From IMG/VR virus record IMGVR_UViG_3300020463_000055, positions 1 to 35,336 of that record: DNA of 35,336 nucleotides, one strand, 5' to 3'. Source of the stretch: a virus. Position 1 is the first letter of the stretch. Each line of letters begins with the position of its first letter. Positions 6,526-17,963 of this stretch are shown here, in pieces. Position numbers and translations under genes: made by a program. The notes beneath the pieces were generated by a model that ran no database searches, was not told where the DNA came from, and saw only the letters and a program-made list of their open reading frames with translations.

Positions 6526-7134
6526 ATGAGCAGGAAATTACTGACAAATTGGTCACAGTTTGAATATTCAAAGGAAATGGTAAACGAGTCTCGCTTAGAG
6601 AACGACGGAAAGATAGTTTTAAAGGGAATACTCCAAAAAGCTGGTACTTTGAACCAGAATGGGAGAATCTATCCCAAACCTATTTTGGATAGAGAGATTC
6701 GTAACTATCAAAAGTTTATTCAAGAAAACCGGGCTCTTGGAGAATGTGATCACCCGGATAGTTCCGTTGTTGAACTTAAAAATGCTTCTCATATTATTAG
6801 GGAAGCTCACATGGAAGGAGATGTTTGTTATGGAACAGTCGAACTTCTTGATACTCCTGCTGGTAAAATACTCCAAAGCTTAGTTGAATCAGGGGTAACT
6901 TTAGGAATATCAAGCCGCGGAGTTGGTTCTACGAAAAAGCAAGGTGAACATCAAATTGTTCAAGATGATTTTCAACTAATCTGCTGGGATTTCGTTTCAG
7001 AACCTTCTACTCCGGGTGCTTTTATGATGAGCGAAGGTAAAGTTATAAAAGAATCAGAAATTAATTCATTCTTTAACAAGTCTGATAGGATTGATAGAGT
7101 TTTTAACGATATCTTGTCCTGGGAGGAAGAATAA
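6526..7134 (+). CDS. 21: Prohead maturation protease (gp21-like)
   Basis: This 202-aa protein has the hallmarks of the T4 gp21/herpesvirus-type prohead serine protease: a LNQNGRIYP start to the core (about residues 42-50), the catalytic His in GECDHPDSS (His76), and the nucleophile motif GISSRG (Ser129 or Ser130), then WDFVSEPSTPGAF. In T4 this enzyme is incorporated in the prohead core and, on activation, cleaves scaffold, internal proteins and the capsid protein after (I/L)xE. It lies between portal and scaffold as in T4. Its stop overlaps the next ATG as TAATG. Confidence 0.95.
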   Translation: MSRKLLTNWSQFEYSKEMVNESRLENDGKIVLKGILQKAGTLNQNGRIYPKPILDREIRNYQKFIQENRALGECDHPDSSVVELKNASHIIREAHMEGDVCYGTVELLDTPAGKILQSLVESGVTLGISSRGVGSTKKQGEHQIVQDDFQLICWDFVSEPSTPGAFMMSEGKVIKESEINSFFNKSDRIDRVFNDILSWEEE

Positions 7135-9417: not shown

Positions 9418-11034
9418 ATGTCAAATAATTTATATGCCGAAGCTATTGCCGAAGCTAAACAGCTAAGAGAAATGGCAGAGCAAAACGCAAAAAACAAAAT
9501 AATAGAGGCAGTTACCCCAAGAATTAAGGCTCTTATAGAGGCTCAAATCATGGGCGAACAGGATGAACCTTCGGATGATGACGTCACAGGTGTTGACATC
9601 GCGATGATGTCTGATGAGATGGAACCTGAAGAAGATTCTCTTGAGTTGCCTACCGATGAACTTATACAACCTGATGAACTCAAAAGCGAGACGGAATCTG
9701 AAAATACGTCCGTAGTAGTTAATGCATCAGGCGATGTTAACATATCCGTTGCTGAAGGTCGCGGCAGAAACCGCGGATTGAGCAAAAATACTCGTTCAAC
9801 CACGCTGTCTGGCAAAGTAAATCTTGCAGAAAATATAAATTCGGTAAGACGTCGGGCGAAAAGGATGGATGCTATGCTTCAAGGCCTCCAGTTCAATAAG
9901 CTAAACGAAACGCAACGGAAACTGATAAAGAAAGCTTATCAGGAATTGCTTTCTGAGGCTTTGTTGATGAAGAGGCTGCTCCTAAAGGAGGGAGCAGAAG
10001 ACCAATTGACTACTTCTTATAAACAAATGATAAAGGAGATTAAGAACATGACAAGAAGAAGCAGTACCATCTTCCGCCGACTATTTGAAATTGATGAGAT
10101 GGCAGATGAGATGGACAAAGACGAAATGGACATGGCTGATGAAGCTATGCATGAAGAAGATGAAGAGGGTGGAGAAGGCGGAGGCGACGTCGATGTTGAT
10201 GCTGCCAGCTCTGCTCTTGAAGACCTAGGTTCAGCATTAGGGCTTGACGTTGAAATCGAAGAAGGTGGAGACGATGAGGGCGATGATGATGAAGAAGAAA
10301 TCGACCTAGGTGAATATGACGAAATGGACATGGCCGACGAAGAAGACGAAATGCGTGAGGCTGATGAAGAAGACGAAGAGGACGAGATGCGCGAAGGCGA
10401 TGAAGAAGACGAAGATGAGATGAAAGAGACTCAGGTCTACGAAATCGATGAGGGTATCCTCCGACGCGAAATTAAGAGGCTTCGACGTCTTCGTGAAGCT
10501 GAGGGTGTAGACGCTTCCGTACTTGATGATTTTGGCGGTGGTGATGATGAGGGTGATATGTTCGTCGATGTTGACGAAGATGATCTTCTCAATGCACTTT
10601 CTGACGAGCTTGGAACAGTTCCTTCGATTGCCCGTGAATCAAGAGACCGAAGAGCTACTCGTCGATCAAGCGTCCAGAACATAAAATTACAAAACGAGAA
10701 TAGAAAGTTGAAGAAGCAGCTTTCTGAGATGAACCTTTTTAACGCAAAGCTTTTATATGTGAATAAGTTGATGCAGAATCGTAATGTGACACAAAAGCAG
10801 CAGCGTGCCATTGTCGAGGCTCTTGATAATGCCAAGACTATTAGAGAAGCTAAGTTCCTCTACCAAGGACTTGCTAAGTCTCTAGTTAAGCGTACTACTC
10901 GTACTATGAACGAGTCAGCAAACAGTCGTAAATTGCTTTCTTCAGCAAGCAAGTCTACTCGAAGTGGTTCTGCCGCTATCAATGAGGATACAGTAGCTGC
11001 AAGATGGGCAACATTGGCTGGCATTAGAAAATAA
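9418..11034 (+). CDS. 22: Prohead core scaffolding protein (gp22-like, enlarged and very acidic)
   Basis: This 538-aa protein lies immediately before the capsid gene, as gp22 does in T4 (269 aa). The N-terminus is helical, with (I/L)xE sites (IIE at 28-30, LIE at 39-41). Two Asp/Glu/Met/Gly-rich stretches follow (about residues 225-340), including repeated DEMDMADE-like units. The C-terminal third has a coiled coil and the stretch LSEMNLFNAKLLYVNKLMQN (about residues 436-455), typical of T4-like scaffolds. It ends in RWATLAGIRK. Such proteins form the temporary core around which gp23 polymerises and are then degraded by the gp21 protease. TAGGTGG precedes the ATG. Confidence 0.88.
   Translation: MSNNLYAEAIAEAKQLREMAEQNAKNKIIEAVTPRIKALIEAQIMGEQDEPSDDDVTGVDIAMMSDEMEPEEDSLELPTDELIQPDELKSETESENTSVVVNASGDVNISVAEGRGRNRGLSKNTRSTTLSGKVNLAENINSVRRRAKRMDAMLQGLQFNKLNETQRKLIKKAYQELLSEALLMKRLLLKEGAEDQLTTSYKQMIKEIKNMTRRSSTIFRRLFEIDEMADEMDKDEMDMADEAMHEEDEEGGEGGGDVDVDAASSALEDLGSALGLDVEIEEGGDDEGDDDEEEIDLGEYDEMDMADEEDEMREADEEDEEDEMREGDEEDEDEMKETQVYEIDEGILRREIKRLRRLREAEGVDASVLDDFGGGDDEGDMFVDVDEDDLLNALSDELGTVPSIARESRDRRATRRSSVQNIKLQNENRKLKKQLSEMNLFNAKLLYVNKLMQNRNVTQKQQRAIVEALDNAKTIREAKFLYQGLAKSLVKRTTRTMNESANSRKLLSSASKSTRSGSAAINEDTVAARWATLAGIRK
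10090..10430 (+). repeat. Degenerate acidic repeats inside the scaffold gene
   Basis: The DNA repeats units of the form GACGAAATGGACATGGC followed by GA(T/C)GAAG (near 10117 and 10318) and shorter GATGAAGAAGACGA units between 10360 and 10425. These encode DEMDMADE and DEEDE runs. This is a low-complexity tract likely to change length by slippage. Confidence 0.7.
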
Positions 11035-11063: not shown

Positions 11064-13034
11064 ATGAGTTTTTCATTAAATCAGTTGACGGAAGGTATCA
11101 AGGCACGTAATGTTGGCCAGGGTAACCGTCGACTGTTAGAAAAGTGGGGCCGAACAGGTCTCCTTCGTGGCCTTGATGGTGTTGGTCGCGAAAACATGGC
11201 CACCCTCCTGGAAAACCAGGCTGGGCAGGTTCTTCGAGAGGCTTCAACTCTCGGTGGTGATGGTGGCGGATCTGATATCCGTGGTTTCACCAATATTGCA
11301 TTCCCAATCGTTCGTCGTGTATTCGGCGGATTGATTGCTAACGAGCTTGTGTCAATCCAGCCGATGAGCCTTCCTTCTGGACTGCTCTTCTACCTCGATT
11401 ACACATACGGTACCAACGTCGGTGGTGACATTGGAACAACCGAAGCTGCATACAAGAAGGGCGACTCTATCTATGGTCAGCCTGTTAACCCAGGTAAGAA
11501 CGGTGGCGCTGACGCTGTTGGCGGTCCTTACGACTTGGTTGGTGCTGGTTACACAAAGAGCCGTGTTGAGAAAGAAGCAGTTCAGCTTCCAGAAACAGCC
11601 CTTAATGCTGGGGACAATACTCAAACTGCAGCTGCATTACTTAAGCTTGGCGCTTTTGGTTCTGACAATGCTTGGGCAGGTAAGGCTACCGGTGGTAACA
11701 AGCCAGCTCTTTTGACTGCAGCTGGCCAGGACTTACGTCTTCTCGACTTTGATCCACAGCTTGTTGCTGAGATTGAAGCCGGCGAAGAGTATGCTGCTCT
11801 TTTTATCCCATGGTCAACAGAGAACTTTCCTAGTTTTGACGCACGACAGGTTAAAGAGATTACCATTAACTCAACCCAAATCACGGGTCTAGGTCCTGTA
11901 CCGTCAAAGGTCCAGGCTGGAGATGCTGTTGCTAACGTCAAGCGCTTAAACAGGATTGTCAAGTCAGAAGCTAACGCAGCTCCTTTTAGCGCTAAGACAA
12001 GGGCACCTGAAGTTGATGGTACTGCTGGTCCTATCAGCATGGCAACCACTGCAGCTACTCACTTCCTGCTTATGATCGTTAAGGTCAACGGAACTGTTGC
12101 CGATAACCAGCTCTCTGATGCTGATACAAAAGCATCTAAATCTGTTATTGACGTCAGCGGCGTTAAGCCAGCAGGAACAAGTGCTGAGGACCTTTCAACA
12201 GTTGTTTCACCAGCTTTTGAGTCAGACTTCGCAGTTGATGAGGGCGATATTCCAGAGATTGACATCAAGATTGAGTCAGTATCTGTTGTTGCTCAGACCC
12301 GTAAACTGCGCGCTAAGTGGTCACCAGAACTCGCACAGGACTTGAATGCATATCACAGCCTTGACGCTGAGGTAGAGCTTACTCAGATTCTTTCTGAGCA
12401 GGTTGCACTCGAGATTGACCGTGAGATTCTTGGAGACCTTCTTGGAGAAGCTGGTGCTGCTAACTTCTTCTGGTCACGCTCACCAGGGAACTTTGTTAAC
12501 AAGCGCACAGGCATTGCAGTTTCACGAGCTACTTCACTCCGCCCAGGACCAGCTTTCACTGGTACAGTTCGCGAGTGGTATGAGACTCTTGTTGAGACCA
12601 TCATCGATGTTTCCAATGAGATTCACAGAAAGACACTTCGTGGCTCTGGTAACTTTATGGTTGTTAGCCCTGAGGTTGCTACCATTCTTGAAGCTAGCGT
12701 TCTTTACAAGCCAGCTCTCACCCTTGATGGTGACGGCCAGGTTGGAATGCCAATGGCTCTTGGAGCTGAGAAGGTTGGTACCCTTTCAAGCCGTTTCACG
12801 GTTTACAAGGACCCATACTTCCCACGTAACAAGATCCTTGTTGGATTCAAGGGCAGCAGCTACTTAGAGACCGGATATGTTTACGCTCCGTACGTACCAT
12901 TGATCGTCACACCAACAATCTTCGCGCCAGAGGACTTCACCCCACGTAAGGGTGTCATGACTCGATACGGTAAGAAGATGGTTCGTTCTGACTTCTACGG
13001 TACTGTTACATGCTTGGACATGGACATTATCTAA
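11064..13034 (+). CDS. 23: Major capsid protein (gp23-like)
   Basis: This 656-aa protein has an excellent AAGGAG site. The N-terminal part is the T4-type cleavable region: LLENQAGQVLREAS holds L57-R58-E59, a good gp21 cut site placed like the IAE site at residue 65 of T4 gp23. The core follows (IRGFTNIAFPIVRRVFGGLIANELVSIQPM), and the C-terminal half has FMVVSPEVATILEAS and LETGYVYAPYVPLIVTPT. T4 gp23 is 521 aa. The surplus is mostly in the middle (about residues 150-390), where T4 has its surface insertion domain. Codons are markedly more GC-ending than in neighbouring minor genes, fitting very high expression. No separate gp24 vertex paralogue is seen in the window. A strong terminator follows. 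Confidence 0.96.
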   Translation: MSFSLNQLTEGIKARNVGQGNRRLLEKWGRTGLLRGLDGVGRENMATLLENQAGQVLREASTLGGDGGGSDIRGFTNIAFPIVRRVFGGLIANELVSIQPMSLPSGLLFYLDYTYGTNVGGDIGTTEAAYKKGDSIYGQPVNPGKNGGADAVGGPYDLVGAGYTKSRVEKEAVQLPETALNAGDNTQTAAALLKLGAFGSDNAWAGKATGGNKPALLTAAGQDLRLLDFDPQLVAEIEAGEEYAALFIPWSTENFPSFDARQVKEITINSTQITGLGPVPSKVQAGDAVANVKRLNRIVKSEANAAPFSAKTRAPEVDGTAGPISMATTAATHFLLMIVKVNGTVADNQLSDADTKASKSVIDVSGVKPAGTSAEDLSTVVSPAFESDFAVDEGDIPEIDIKIESVSVVAQTRKLRAKWSPELAQDLNAYHSLDAEVELTQILSEQVALEIDREILGDLLGEAGAANFFWSRSPGNFVNKRTGIAVSRATSLRPGPAFTGTVREWYETLVETIIDVSNEIHRKTLRGSGNFMVVSPEVATILEASVLYKPALTLDGDGQVGMPMALGAEKVGTLSSRFTVYKDPYFPRNKILVGFKGSSYLETGYVYAPYVPLIVTPTIFAPEDFTPRKGVMTRYGKKMVRSDFYGTVTCLDMDII

Positions 13035-13057: not shown

Positions 13058-13088
13058 AAAGGGAGGCTTCTGGCCTCCCTTTTTTTTT
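13058..13088 (+). terminator. Rho-independent terminator after the capsid gene
   Basis: The perfect GC-rich stem GGGAGGC (13061-13067) / GCCTCCC (13073-13079) has a 5-base loop TTCTG. It is extended by A-T pairs at the base and followed by nine consecutive Ts (13080-13088). It would separate the scaffold/capsid transcript from the kinase-like gene. Confidence 0.93.
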
Positions 13089-13146
13089 ACTTTATTGGTT
13101 TTCTAATATATTTATTAAACGATCTAGTCAATTTTGTGGAGGACAA

Positions 13147-14709
13147 ATGAAACTCACTGAACTTTACGGTTATAAACCAAGAAAGAAGAAATTAAAAGAA
13201 AACAAAAAGCGACCTAGCTTAGTTAACTTGCTGTTCGAGGACGAAGCTTTAACAAAACAAGTCAAAGCTGTTGATGCTAAGCCGATTACGCTTGTTGTTC
13301 TTTATGGTCCTCCTGCTGCTGGTAAAGGAGCTGCTAAGAAAGCTATTGGTGACTTTATTGGAGCCAATGATGAACAAAATTTCAAAGATTATCTTAAAGG
13401 TTTAGAAGACAAAGGTGCATCACAGTTTCAAGAAGAAGATGAAGCAATGACTAGCGTTACTAGTAAGGCTTTAGCTCCGGCTGTCTTTAATGAGATCGAA
13501 GCAAGAGTTGATAAAGGGGAGTCTTTCGAAGATATTATCGATGATTATTTTCATGTCAACGAAAAGGGAGTTAAGTTTGAACTTAGCTCTATTCTCTCTA
13601 AGTCAGCTTTTGAGAAGATTAAAGATGGCGGAGGCTCAGATGAATTTGCTAAGTTCCCAAACACAAAAGCTTTCTTCACGCAAGCTCGTGGATTCTCAAA
13701 GACTATTAAAGGTTTAAGCGATGATATTAATAAGATGCTTGGGCCAGGTGATGGCAACCCAACCTTAGGTTTAAGGGCTGGTGCTGCTGCTCGTTACCTT
13801 GGAGATATCAAGAAAGAAATGAAGTCGTTAATGTCTGATGTTAAAGAAGTTGGATCAACTGCTTACGCTAGCGTATATCTAGCAGACCAAGCTGGAGAAT
13901 CCACAGCGAATACTGACAGAATATCTCAACTAGGACAACTGAAAGGCGATGAAGAATTTGCCGGCTTAAAGATTATCGGTATTTATATCCATCAGCCAGC
14001 TGACAGAACTCGTATAGCAAATCTTCACAGAGCTTCAACAGGCGGTCGTCGAGTAGCACAGTCAGAAGTTGATAGAATTTTTGCTGCTAGCCCAGAGGTT
14101 GATGAGGACGGTAATATTACCAAAAAAGGTCCGGCGATTGAAGCTATGGAATCAGCTGGTTTTGATCAAATCCACTTATACTATCCACCTAATCCGTTTG
14201 ATCCTGAGGGCGTTGAGATTGATGGACAAAAAATCGGTAACGCAATCTGTGAACCTTTAGGAACCGGTAAGGGCCACTTAGATATTGAAGGTTGCGAAGA
14301 AGAAGGCGAAGGCCCAAAGACAGGAGCACGTTCTTTGAAAGGTATGGAAAAATATGCTGCAAAGAGTGCAAAACTAGACTCTGAAAAAGTAGAAGATGCT
14401 GGCGGTGGATTACCTAAGGATTTAAGCAATGAAGAAAAAGAAAAAGTCATTGCAGCTTTTGAAAAGATGAAATTCACTGGAGTAACTGTTGCCGATTTAG
14501 ATAAATACCTTTCTAATGTTCACCCTCCCCAAGTGCGTGATGGTGGTGAGCATGGCAAAGTTCCTTGGGCCGGCGATTTATTTCTTACGAAAGGTAGAGA
14601 TCCTACTGAAAAAGTTACCATTAAAGATGAGTCTGTCAGGACTCGCAAGACAAAGGGTGATCTACTCCGTGAACGTTGGTTGAAGAACGCTGGTCTATTA
14701 AACGATTAA
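13147..14709 (+). CDS. P-loop kinase-like protein (zeta-toxin/PNK-like fold?) with prohead-type leader and scaffold-like tail (520 aa)
   Basis: A strong GTGGAGGA site precedes the ATG. Residues 49-61 (LVVLYGPPAAGKG) are a clear Walker A with Lys60. The stretch YIHQPADRTRIANLHRASTGGRRVAQSEVDRIF (in two pieces, about 280-294 and 295-312) resembles the arginine-rich lid of zeta-toxin/polynucleotide-kinase-like enzymes, where GRxVP-type motifs contact phosphate. The substrate cannot be told. The first 45 residues are basic, then SLVNLLFEDEA, with LFE (29-31) as a gp21-type cleavage site. The last residues (RERWLKNAGLLND, R510-W511) resemble the scaffold C-terminus. A long linker with a Glu/Gly-rich patch (about 380-390) separates the kinase-like part from the tail. 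Standing between capsid and neck genes, it is probably a virion-associated enzyme, possibly packaged; this is inference. Confidence 0.75.
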   Translation: MKLTELYGYKPRKKKLKENKKRPSLVNLLFEDEALTKQVKAVDAKPITLVVLYGPPAAGKGAAKKAIGDFIGANDEQNFKDYLKGLEDKGASQFQEEDEAMTSVTSKALAPAVFNEIEARVDKGESFEDIIDDYFHVNEKGVKFELSSILSKSAFEKIKDGGGSDEFAKFPNTKAFFTQARGFSKTIKGLSDDINKMLGPGDGNPTLGLRAGAAARYLGDIKKEMKSLMSDVKEVGSTAYASVYLADQAGESTANTDRISQLGQLKGDEEFAGLKIIGIYIHQPADRTRIANLHRASTGGRRVAQSEVDRIFAASPEVDEDGNITKKGPAIEAMESAGFDQIHLYYPPNPFDPEGVEIDGQKIGNAICEPLGTGKGHLDIEGCEEEGEGPKTGARSLKGMEKYAAKSAKLDSEKVEDAGGGLPKDLSNEEKEKVIAAFEKMKFTGVTVADLDKYLSNVHPPQVRDGGEHGKVPWAGDLFLTKGRDPTEKVTIKDESVRTRKTKGDLLRERWLKNAGLLND

Positions 14710-14767: not shown

Positions 14768-15058
14768 ATGACTACTACAAAGACAAAGAAGACAGCGGGG
14801 GCATCAAAGCCGGCTGCGCCAAAACCAGCTGCTAAACCAGCTCCAGCAAAGAACGCTGAATTAGATAAGTTGACAAAGAGGGTAGCTCAGCTTGAAAAGC
14901 AGGTTGCATCTCTAGAATCAGCCCCAGCACCAGCAGATACAGGTTTAAGAGCAGAGTTAACTAGCTTACGTGAACAATTCCACAAATTTGCTACAATCTT
15001 GCATGAGCAATCTGACCAAAGAGTGATTTCTAAATTAATCGGCCGTCTTTTCGGATAG
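14768..15058 (+). CDS. Small Ala/Pro/Lys-rich coiled-coil protein (96 aa)
   Basis: An AGAGGAG site lies about 10 bases before the ATG. Residues 1-30 are a Lys/Ala/Pro-rich flexible arm with repeated KPA units. Residues 31-52 (LDKLTKRVAQLEKQVASLE) form a heptad coiled coil, followed by an APAPAD linker and a second helix to the end. This is the architecture of small oligomeric linker or head-fibre proteins, but no family is recognised. It lies between the kinase-like and the beta-rich virion genes. Confidence 0.7.
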   Translation: MTTTKTKKTAGASKPAAPKPAAKPAPAKNAELDKLTKRVAQLEKQVASLESAPAPADTGLRAELTSLREQFHKFATILHEQSDQRVISKLIGRLFG

Positions 15059-16799: not shown

Positions 16800-17963
16800 A
16801 TGTCTTCATTTAAAGAAACCCTCAGACCAACGCCGTTTGGATTTTTTGATGCAGATCCGATTTTTTCATCGGAAGCAGATTCAATGGTGACTTTTGTCAA
16901 GCGTAAGCTTGGCGACGATATTTTATCAGTAGAATTAACAAAAAAACAAATTTGGTCATGTTTTGAAGAATCTTTTTTAGAGTATGGCAGAATTGTTCTA
17001 GAAGCTCACGGAAAGTCTCAACTGACCAACTTATTAGGTATACCAACTGGGTCGCTTTCTGGTGCTGAAGCGCTTCACCCAAGGCAGAATTTAGAGTTTG
17101 CTTTGAGGGCGGCTGAACCTTATGCAGGAGAAGCTGGCGTTGGAGGTTCTTATTCGGTTTTTTCTGGTTCAATTGATATGAAAGCTGAAGTTCAAGATTA
17201 TGATATCTACGAAACTCTTAAAGACGGAAACGGGGATTTGGTCGTAAGCAGTAGTTTAAATTCTCCAAGAACTAAATTGAAAGTATTAGAAGTTTGTCAT
17301 TTCTCTCCGCAAAACGCATACAGATTCTTTGATACAACATCAGCTATCAACTATTTGAATAACGAATTCAGCTTTGAATCTTTTACTCCAGAAACTGTCT
17401 TTTATGTTTTACCGGTTTTTGAAGATATATTGCGCGCAGGGCAAATGGATATATCTAATAGGATCAGGAGATCGAACTATTCATATAAGTTAATGGGTGG
17501 AAAACTGAGAATATATCCTATTCCCCAAAAGGACAAAAAGCTTTGGATAAAATTTTCTTATGCTCCAGATCCAATAAACCCGCAAGTTAAAGACGATACT
17601 ATTTACGGAGTTTCAAATCTTTCTAATGTTCCTTTCGGAAACTTAAACTACTCTAAAATAAACGAGATTGGAAGACAGTGGGTAAGACAATACGCTTTAG
17701 CTCTTTCAAAAGAACTTTTAGGATTAGTTCGTTCAAAGTTTTCTTCTGTTCCTTTACCCGATGGTGATTTAAGCCTTAATGGTACTGAATTGATATCTCA
17801 AGGTAGAGAAGATCAAAGCAGTTTAAGAGATAAAATGACTGAATTACTAGATACTCTATCATACGGTAATTTGCTTAAGTCTGAAGCAGAGTCTGCAGAA
17901 GCTATACAAACAGTTCTAAAATCCGTTCCTATACCGCTTGGCAAAGCGATAACATTAGGATAA
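16800..17963 (+). CDS. 13: Neck/head-completion protein (gp13-like)
   Basis: The ATG directly follows the hairpin described at 16763-16798. The 387-aa protein has a conserved-looking N-terminus (FGFFDADPIFSSEADSMV, then VKRKLGDDILSVELTKKQIW and CFEESFLEYG) and a middle SYKLMGGKLRIYPIP, features I associate with T4-like neck proteins. T4 gp13 is 309 aa. In T4, gp13 and gp14 seal the filled head and provide the tail attachment site. The next two genes fit gp14 and gp15, so this order (13-14-15) supports the call more than sequence alone does. Confidence 0.65.
   Translation: MSSFKETLRPTPFGFFDADPIFSSEADSMVTFVKRKLGDDILSVELTKKQIWSCFEESFLEYGRIVLEAHGKSQLTNLLGIPTGSLSGAEALHPRQNLEFALRAAEPYAGEAGVGGSYSVFSGSIDMKAEVQDYDIYETLKDGNGDLVVSSSLNSPRTKLKVLEVCHFSPQNAYRFFDTTSAINYLNNEFSFESFTPETVFYVLPVFEDILRAGQMDISNRIRRSNYSYKLMGGKLRIYPIPQKDKKLWIKFSYAPDPINPQVKDDTIYGVSNLSNVPFGNLNYSKINEIGRQWVRQYALALSKELLGLVRSKFSSVPLPDGDLSLNGTELISQGREDQSSLRDKMTELLDTLSYGNLLKSEAESAEAIQTVLKSVPIPLGKAITLG

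Follow-up and report, generated by a model that had tools for sequence, protein, structure and literature searches.

In phage T4, the prohead protease gp21 cleaves after the motif (L/I)xE, and internal proteins are directed into the core by their leaders (PMC9026906). The internal proteins IPI–III and Alt carry a capsid targeting sequence, and Alt is an enzyme that is packaged (PMC9026906). DarB of phage P1, an antirestriction enzyme, is packaged by means of a short N-terminal signal and is believed to be injected (PMC9024508). Enzymes fused ahead of the C-terminal part of the P22 scaffold are encapsulated (PMC9962691), and scaffold proteins of herpesviruses attach to the major capsid protein by C-termini that the maturation protease removes (PMC12474303). 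Here, we describe a gene for a P-loop kinase-like protein of 520 amino acids, a putative packaged enzyme, in the virus record IMGVR_UViG_3300020463_000055. The whole stretch of 35,336 nt is referred to as the window, and coordinates are window positions. The gene (13147..14709, plus strand) is assigned on the basis of its open reading frame (ORF), a GGAGG ribosome site at 13138–13142, its homologues, and its predicted fold. The protein is probably a cargo of the zeta-toxin/polynucleotide-kinase type, which a scaffold-mimicking docking tail and a cleavable leader would load into the prohead for ejection.

Like IPI–III and Alt, the kinase-like protein is an independent protein with a short signal and a predicted gp21-type (L/I)xE cleavage site in a T4-type head assembly system. 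The T4 signal, however, is an N-terminal leader of approximately 10–19 residues, whereas the kinase-like protein has a scaffold-type C-terminal tail in addition. In the P22 fusions, too, an enzyme ahead of a scaffold C-terminal part enters the capsid, but these constructs are engineered and include at least 60 scaffold residues, whereas the arrangement described here is natural and the shared part comprises approximately 10–12 residues. The herpesvirus UL26/UL26.5 proteins likewise have a C-terminal end common to enzyme and scaffold; there, the genes overlap, whereas here unrelated genes carry the tail. DarB combines packaging of an enzyme with a short N-terminal signal, as the kinase-like protein would. 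No C-terminal signal has been described for DarB, which is much larger, and P1 apparently has no separate scaffold. Packaging of enzymes and capsid targeting by N-terminal leaders are already known; for a short scaffold-type C-terminal tail common to the scaffold and unrelated enzymes, no description was found in the open-access papers searched.

Results

The last residues of the kinase-like protein (RWLKNAGLLND, residues 510–520, 14674..14706, +) resemble those of the gp22-type prohead scaffold encoded in the window (538 amino acids, 9418..11034, +), which carries the tail RWATLAGIRK (residues 529–538, 11002..11031, +). An initial annotation, made from the letters alone, had noticed the agreement at R, W, A, G, and an aliphatic residue and had cautioned that so short a match could be chance. 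All the motifs that it named, namely both tails and the P-loop, the lid-like segment, and the LFE motif described below, were confirmed. The tail residues R, W, A, G, and the aliphatic residue at the end (RWxxxAGLL) are kept in nine of nine homologous kinase loci, which are distributed over several viral contigs, were retrieved by sequence and not by the tail, and show identities down to 46%. In the alignment of ten kinase sequences, R, W, A, and G are invariant while the flanking residues vary. The end of the window kinase conforms to the gp22-type C-terminal tail (here RWxxxAGLL), and the scaffold tail is kept in the scaffold alignment and across the scaffolds of related phages.

Only five identical or similar positions support the match within the window, which left room for chance as an explanation. 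The signature RWxxLAG was found 60 times at the C-terminus and never internally in 1784 distinct ORFs, a set selected through scaffold and kinase and hence biased; two less biased pattern tests were therefore run. A DNA pattern for RWxx[hydrophobic]AG gave 33 matches in 20 whole records compared to two with the reversed pattern. All 27 matches inspected outside LR756511 (a 595 kb record) were C-terminal; one remaining match was located in no ORF of at least 100 amino acids. In the whole viral collection, the pattern D-x-hyd-hyd-E-R-W-x-x-hyd-A-G-hyd (hyd, hydrophobic) was detected in 60 stretches, and its reversal in two. Within the 60 stretches, 69 in-frame occurrences were counted (L197–L202 excluded), of which 53 lay at most eight residues from the stop codon. 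A pattern slightly stricter than the tail form R-W/M/L-x-x-L-A-G-I/L, applied to 5290 ORFs, yielded 121 C-terminal, four N-terminal, and five internal matches. The reversed-pattern controls and the near-confinement of the signature to C-termini contradict a chance match, which was rejected as having a negligible probability.

The scaffold and kinase genes are approximately 2 kb apart in the window, and a functionless tail might have been copied between neighboring genes by recombination. The kinase gene occurs in two settings, either adjoining the capsid gene, as in the window, or in a separate accessory locus. The latter applies to the 242 kb contig G003, in which kinase and scaffold are separated by approximately 65 kb and both are tailed. 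Moreover, R, W, A, and G stay invariant amid varying flanks and are kept in the homologue with 46% identity, where a neutral tail would decay, and unrelated cores carry the tail as well. Gene conversion between neighbors is therefore highly improbable and was rejected on account of the invariance of the tail at this distance and on unrelated cores. Scans of two further contigs (G001 and G002) showed the motif at the ends of scaffold and kinase only, whereas exactly three proteins are tailed in G003, the third being a low-complexity protein of 664 amino acids encoded upstream of the kinase.

Clustering of the tail carriers by their cores resulted in 57 scaffolds, 24 proteins with a DGHHRW site, 12 kinases, six members of the 664-amino-acid family, two HAD-like proteins (PF11019, E 1.4e-6, above its cut-off), and several small groups. 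Where the context was readable, many carriers were encoded in head gene clusters akin to the one in the window. In two loci (L060 and L065), the slot adjoining the capsid gene, which holds the kinase in the window, is occupied by a DGHHRW protein; no similarity between its core and that of the kinase was detectable. Both ends of these proteins resemble those of the kinase: they start with MKLTDLYGF or MKLSDVFGF and end with KGDVLLERW..xAG, and KGDVLLERW is also present in the kinase of L001. Residues 2–20 of the window kinase share ten identities with the L060 protein, compared to seven for the next best among 1851 other ORFs. Other occupants of the slot, which by eye are sulfotransferase-like or endonuclease-like, have no tail. 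The structure model of the DGHHRW protein (pLDDT 86) shows an ordered core with a predicted ParB/Srx-type fold and terminal helices (residues 7–26 and 298–309) separated from it by low-confidence linkers. A weak similarity links the core to a part of a DarB-like protein from phage JC1 (E 3e-3). In L168 (6641–9966) and L173, three tagged genes were seen in tandem, encoding a DGHHRW protein, a HAD-like protein (DUF2608), and a second DGHHRW protein.

The initial annotation had read the LFE of the kinase as a cleavage-type site, and the conservation of the N-terminus agrees with this. The predicted leader (residues 1–31, 13147..13239, +) closes with LFE (residues 29–31, 13231–13239), in line with the (L/I)xE leaders of ejected internal proteins of the T4 type. 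E31 is invariant and L29 nearly invariant in the ten aligned sequences, whereas the rest of the N-terminus is variable. The motif S[LM]xx.[LIMF]FE, counted within the first 75 residues, was found in 16 of the 36 kinases and DGHHRW proteins, compared to two of 1298 background ORFs (Fisher's test, 2.5e-25). The window encodes a T4-type head system with a gp21-type prohead protease (Peptidase_S77; 6526..7134, +; PF03420 E 1.8e-25, phrog_207 E 2.7e-51) and a gp23-type capsid protein, and this protease is the expected cutter of both the kinase leader and the scaffold. Tail and leader are thus conserved, and the sequence comparisons indicate that the tail is common to scaffolds and unrelated enzymes and the leader to unrelated enzymes; in far-T4-type phages, both are limited to protein ends. 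The initial annotation undersold the case in this respect. Because the same two ends are found on unrelated enzymes, a modular loading tag is likelier than a one-off coincidence.

The tail might alternatively have no role in packaging and be recognized by another partner, such as the portal or a protease, either that of the prohead or one of the host acting on a C-terminal degron. Its C-terminal position is compatible with this, as is the occurrence of (L/I/M)xE within the 28 residues that precede RW, in most cases immediately adjacent, in eight of 11 kinases (1.4 expected), as though presented to a protease. Cleavage directly before the tail may take place, but three kinase homologues have Ala or Asp at this site. 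No excess of (L/I/M)xE before the tail was found in the scaffolds (24 compared to 32.9 expected). The tail is, however, shared with the scaffold, and many carriers reside in head loci, which fits docking better than degradation. The same holds for motifs in N-terminal position. The scaffold of the cultured phage immuto ends with RWQKLAGIIK, and two other immuto proteins (immuto35A_42 and immuto35A_187; MW353176.1, 25470–25865 and 111631–112095) were observed to start with MKKQILSEQF[KR]RMQ[FK]LAGIITES, the scaffold-tail motif at the opposite end. Three DGHHRW proteins collected by their core carry R[FL]Q[KE]LAGI close to the N-terminus in place of the tail, and in all five proteins the LAGI motif is followed by an LxE-type site. 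Recognition by another partner is accordingly considered quite improbable.

A further explanation is that the tailed proteins are not delivered cargo but help to assemble the prohead core: the tail would let them take part in scaffold assembly, and they would be degraded or expelled at maturation, as are gp67 and gp68 in T4. The tail is a scaffold feature, and two large low-complexity tailed proteins with many LxE sites (664 amino acids in L003 and 751 in L046) do resemble core proteins. On the other hand, the kinase and DGHHRW cores keep strongly conserved residues reminiscent of active sites, and a series of interchangeable enzymes in the slot adjoining the capsid gene would be odd for a part of the core. 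We regard this explanation as unlikely and prefer the interpretation of the kinase-like protein as cargo.

Two other arrangements of the tag were observed. Internal copies followed by LNE or INE occur in L143, L153, L150, L159, L165, and L172 (PILERWHKLAGLEPLNE; DVLLERWTRLAGIVHPQPINE), which looks like two cargo parts joined with tag and cut site between them. On the minus strand of L193, the segment starting at 11809 encodes approximately 92 amino acids, scarcely more than leader and tail.

The P-loop GPPAAGKG (residues 54–61, 13306..13329, +) is invariant in the ten aligned homologues, as are R295 and G299–V303 of the arginine-rich lid-like segment RASTGGRRV (residues 295–303, 14029..14055, +). 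The protein resembles the zeta toxin, PezT, and polynucleotide kinases in the fold predicted for its core and in the arginine-rich lid-like segment, whereas it differs by the Gly that follows the Lys of the P-loop, by a large helical insertion, and by a long C-terminal extension. Both structural comparisons of the modest model ranked the zeta toxin first (E 0.03 with Foldseek; Z 10.6 with VIA, at 3.0 Å over 146 residues), and further VIA matches were the bacterial Pnk 4mde (Z 9.8), PezT (9.7), mammalian PNKP (9.1), and AvrRxo1 (8.9). Searches of the Protein Data Bank with phmmer/hmmsearch returned weak P-loop matches only (NSF and RFC). No match to the kinase was obtained by tblastn against annotated phages, in a scan of bacterial and archaeal genomes, or with PADLOC.

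As the initial annotation had stated, the kinase gene lies between capsid and neck genes, in a cluster that includes the gp21-type protease gene. It is flanked by the genes for the gp23-type major capsid protein (11064..13034, +; PF07068 E 9.7e-77) and a head–tail adaptor (neck) protein (16800..17963, +; phrog_211 E 1.6e-8). The scaffold gene is assigned from its location between the protease and capsid genes and from 52 related loci; the C-terminal part of its product matches the immuto protein that occupies the gp22 position. A terminator-like hairpin with a T run (GGGAGGCTTCTGGCCTCCC; 13061..13088, +) was seen between the capsid and kinase genes by reading the sequence directly. Because of this strong hairpin, the kinase is possibly transcribed separately from the capsid gene. 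The capsid protein is closest to those of T4 relatives such as Microcystis phage Mel-JY01, Flavobacterium phage immuto, and Rhodothermus phage RM378; such relatives are referred to here as far-T4 phages. Its N-terminal arm contains LLEKWGRTGLLRGL, and relatives keep KWxxTGLLEG, a W-G-L pattern that is slightly tail-like. Four loci (L061, L087, L088, and L089) have two tandem capsid genes of approximately 630 amino acids each, which could yield hexamer and vertex subunits. On the 3' side of the kinase gene, 14768–15058 encodes a small lysine/threonine-rich, coiled-coil-like protein, whose positional relatives on other contigs end with LRKAGL, LRRAGITRS, or LRNAGLIK, a faint likeness to the scaffold tail.

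Discussion

The last 11 residues of the kinase-like protein are proposed to fold into a short helix (RWxxxAGLL) mimicking the one at the C-terminus of the gp22-type scaffold. During prohead assembly, this helix would dock where the scaffold tail docks, most likely on the capsid protein's inner face; docking on the partner of the scaffold tail is proposed because the kinase tail copies the helix of the latter. During maturation, the gp21-type protease would remove the leader ending in L-F-E, as for T4 internal proteins, and the freed enzyme would remain in the head and be ejected with the DNA, by analogy to Alt or, as is believed, DarB of P1. Docking on the capsid, packaging, cleavage, ejection, and catalytic activity are all steps that we infer. 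The initial annotation had suggested a kinase held in the prohead by scaffold-type contacts and delivered to the host. At the level of sequence, this reading is supported, while presence in virions and delivery would follow from it by inference.

Several observations weigh against this interpretation. The gp22 protein of T4 itself has no such tail. Among 22 divergent DGHHRW members, the invariant positions comprise the DGHHRW site, one Gln and one Leu, E39 in the leader, and, in the tail, E-R-W and A-G, but the conservation of the tail is partly by construction, many members having been found via the tail; that of the leader is unaffected. When relatives were collected by the core alone, the tail was present in five of 78 and absent from 73, and it therefore marks certain phage lineages, not the DGHHRW enzyme family. 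With regard to the enzyme, the structure model of the kinase-like protein is of modest confidence (pLDDT 56.5, pTM 0.47), and no family match was obtained in Pfam, NCBIfam, or PHROG; the zeta-toxin models of Pfam and NCBIfam did not match the homologues either. The P-loop departs from the Walker A sequence GxxxxGK[ST]: all ten homologues have GPPAAGKGA, in which Gly replaces the Ser/Thr of zeta toxins. The fold comparison that the initial annotation had proposed placed zeta toxins and polynucleotide kinases on top, albeit with this modest model. The protein is likely a P-loop kinase and at most a candidate member of the zeta family.

For the far-T4 phages, we consider it fairly likely that one short docking helix, R-W-x-x-L-A-G, has two uses, as the terminus of the scaffold and as a portable loading tag for changing enzymes (a zeta/Pnk-type kinase, a ParB/Srx-type enzyme, a HAD-like protein), which carry it C-terminally or, in certain lineages, N-terminally, and that an exchangeable enzyme payload is thereby brought into the host. 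If this is true, it would provide a sequence rule for spotting packaged or injected phage enzymes in metagenomes, where virion proteomics is impossible, and a natural tag of approximately 11 residues for loading proteins into capsids. Next to the capsid gene, it would predict a slot for exchangeable payloads, and it would also make a definite prediction on the working of the T4-type scaffold end.
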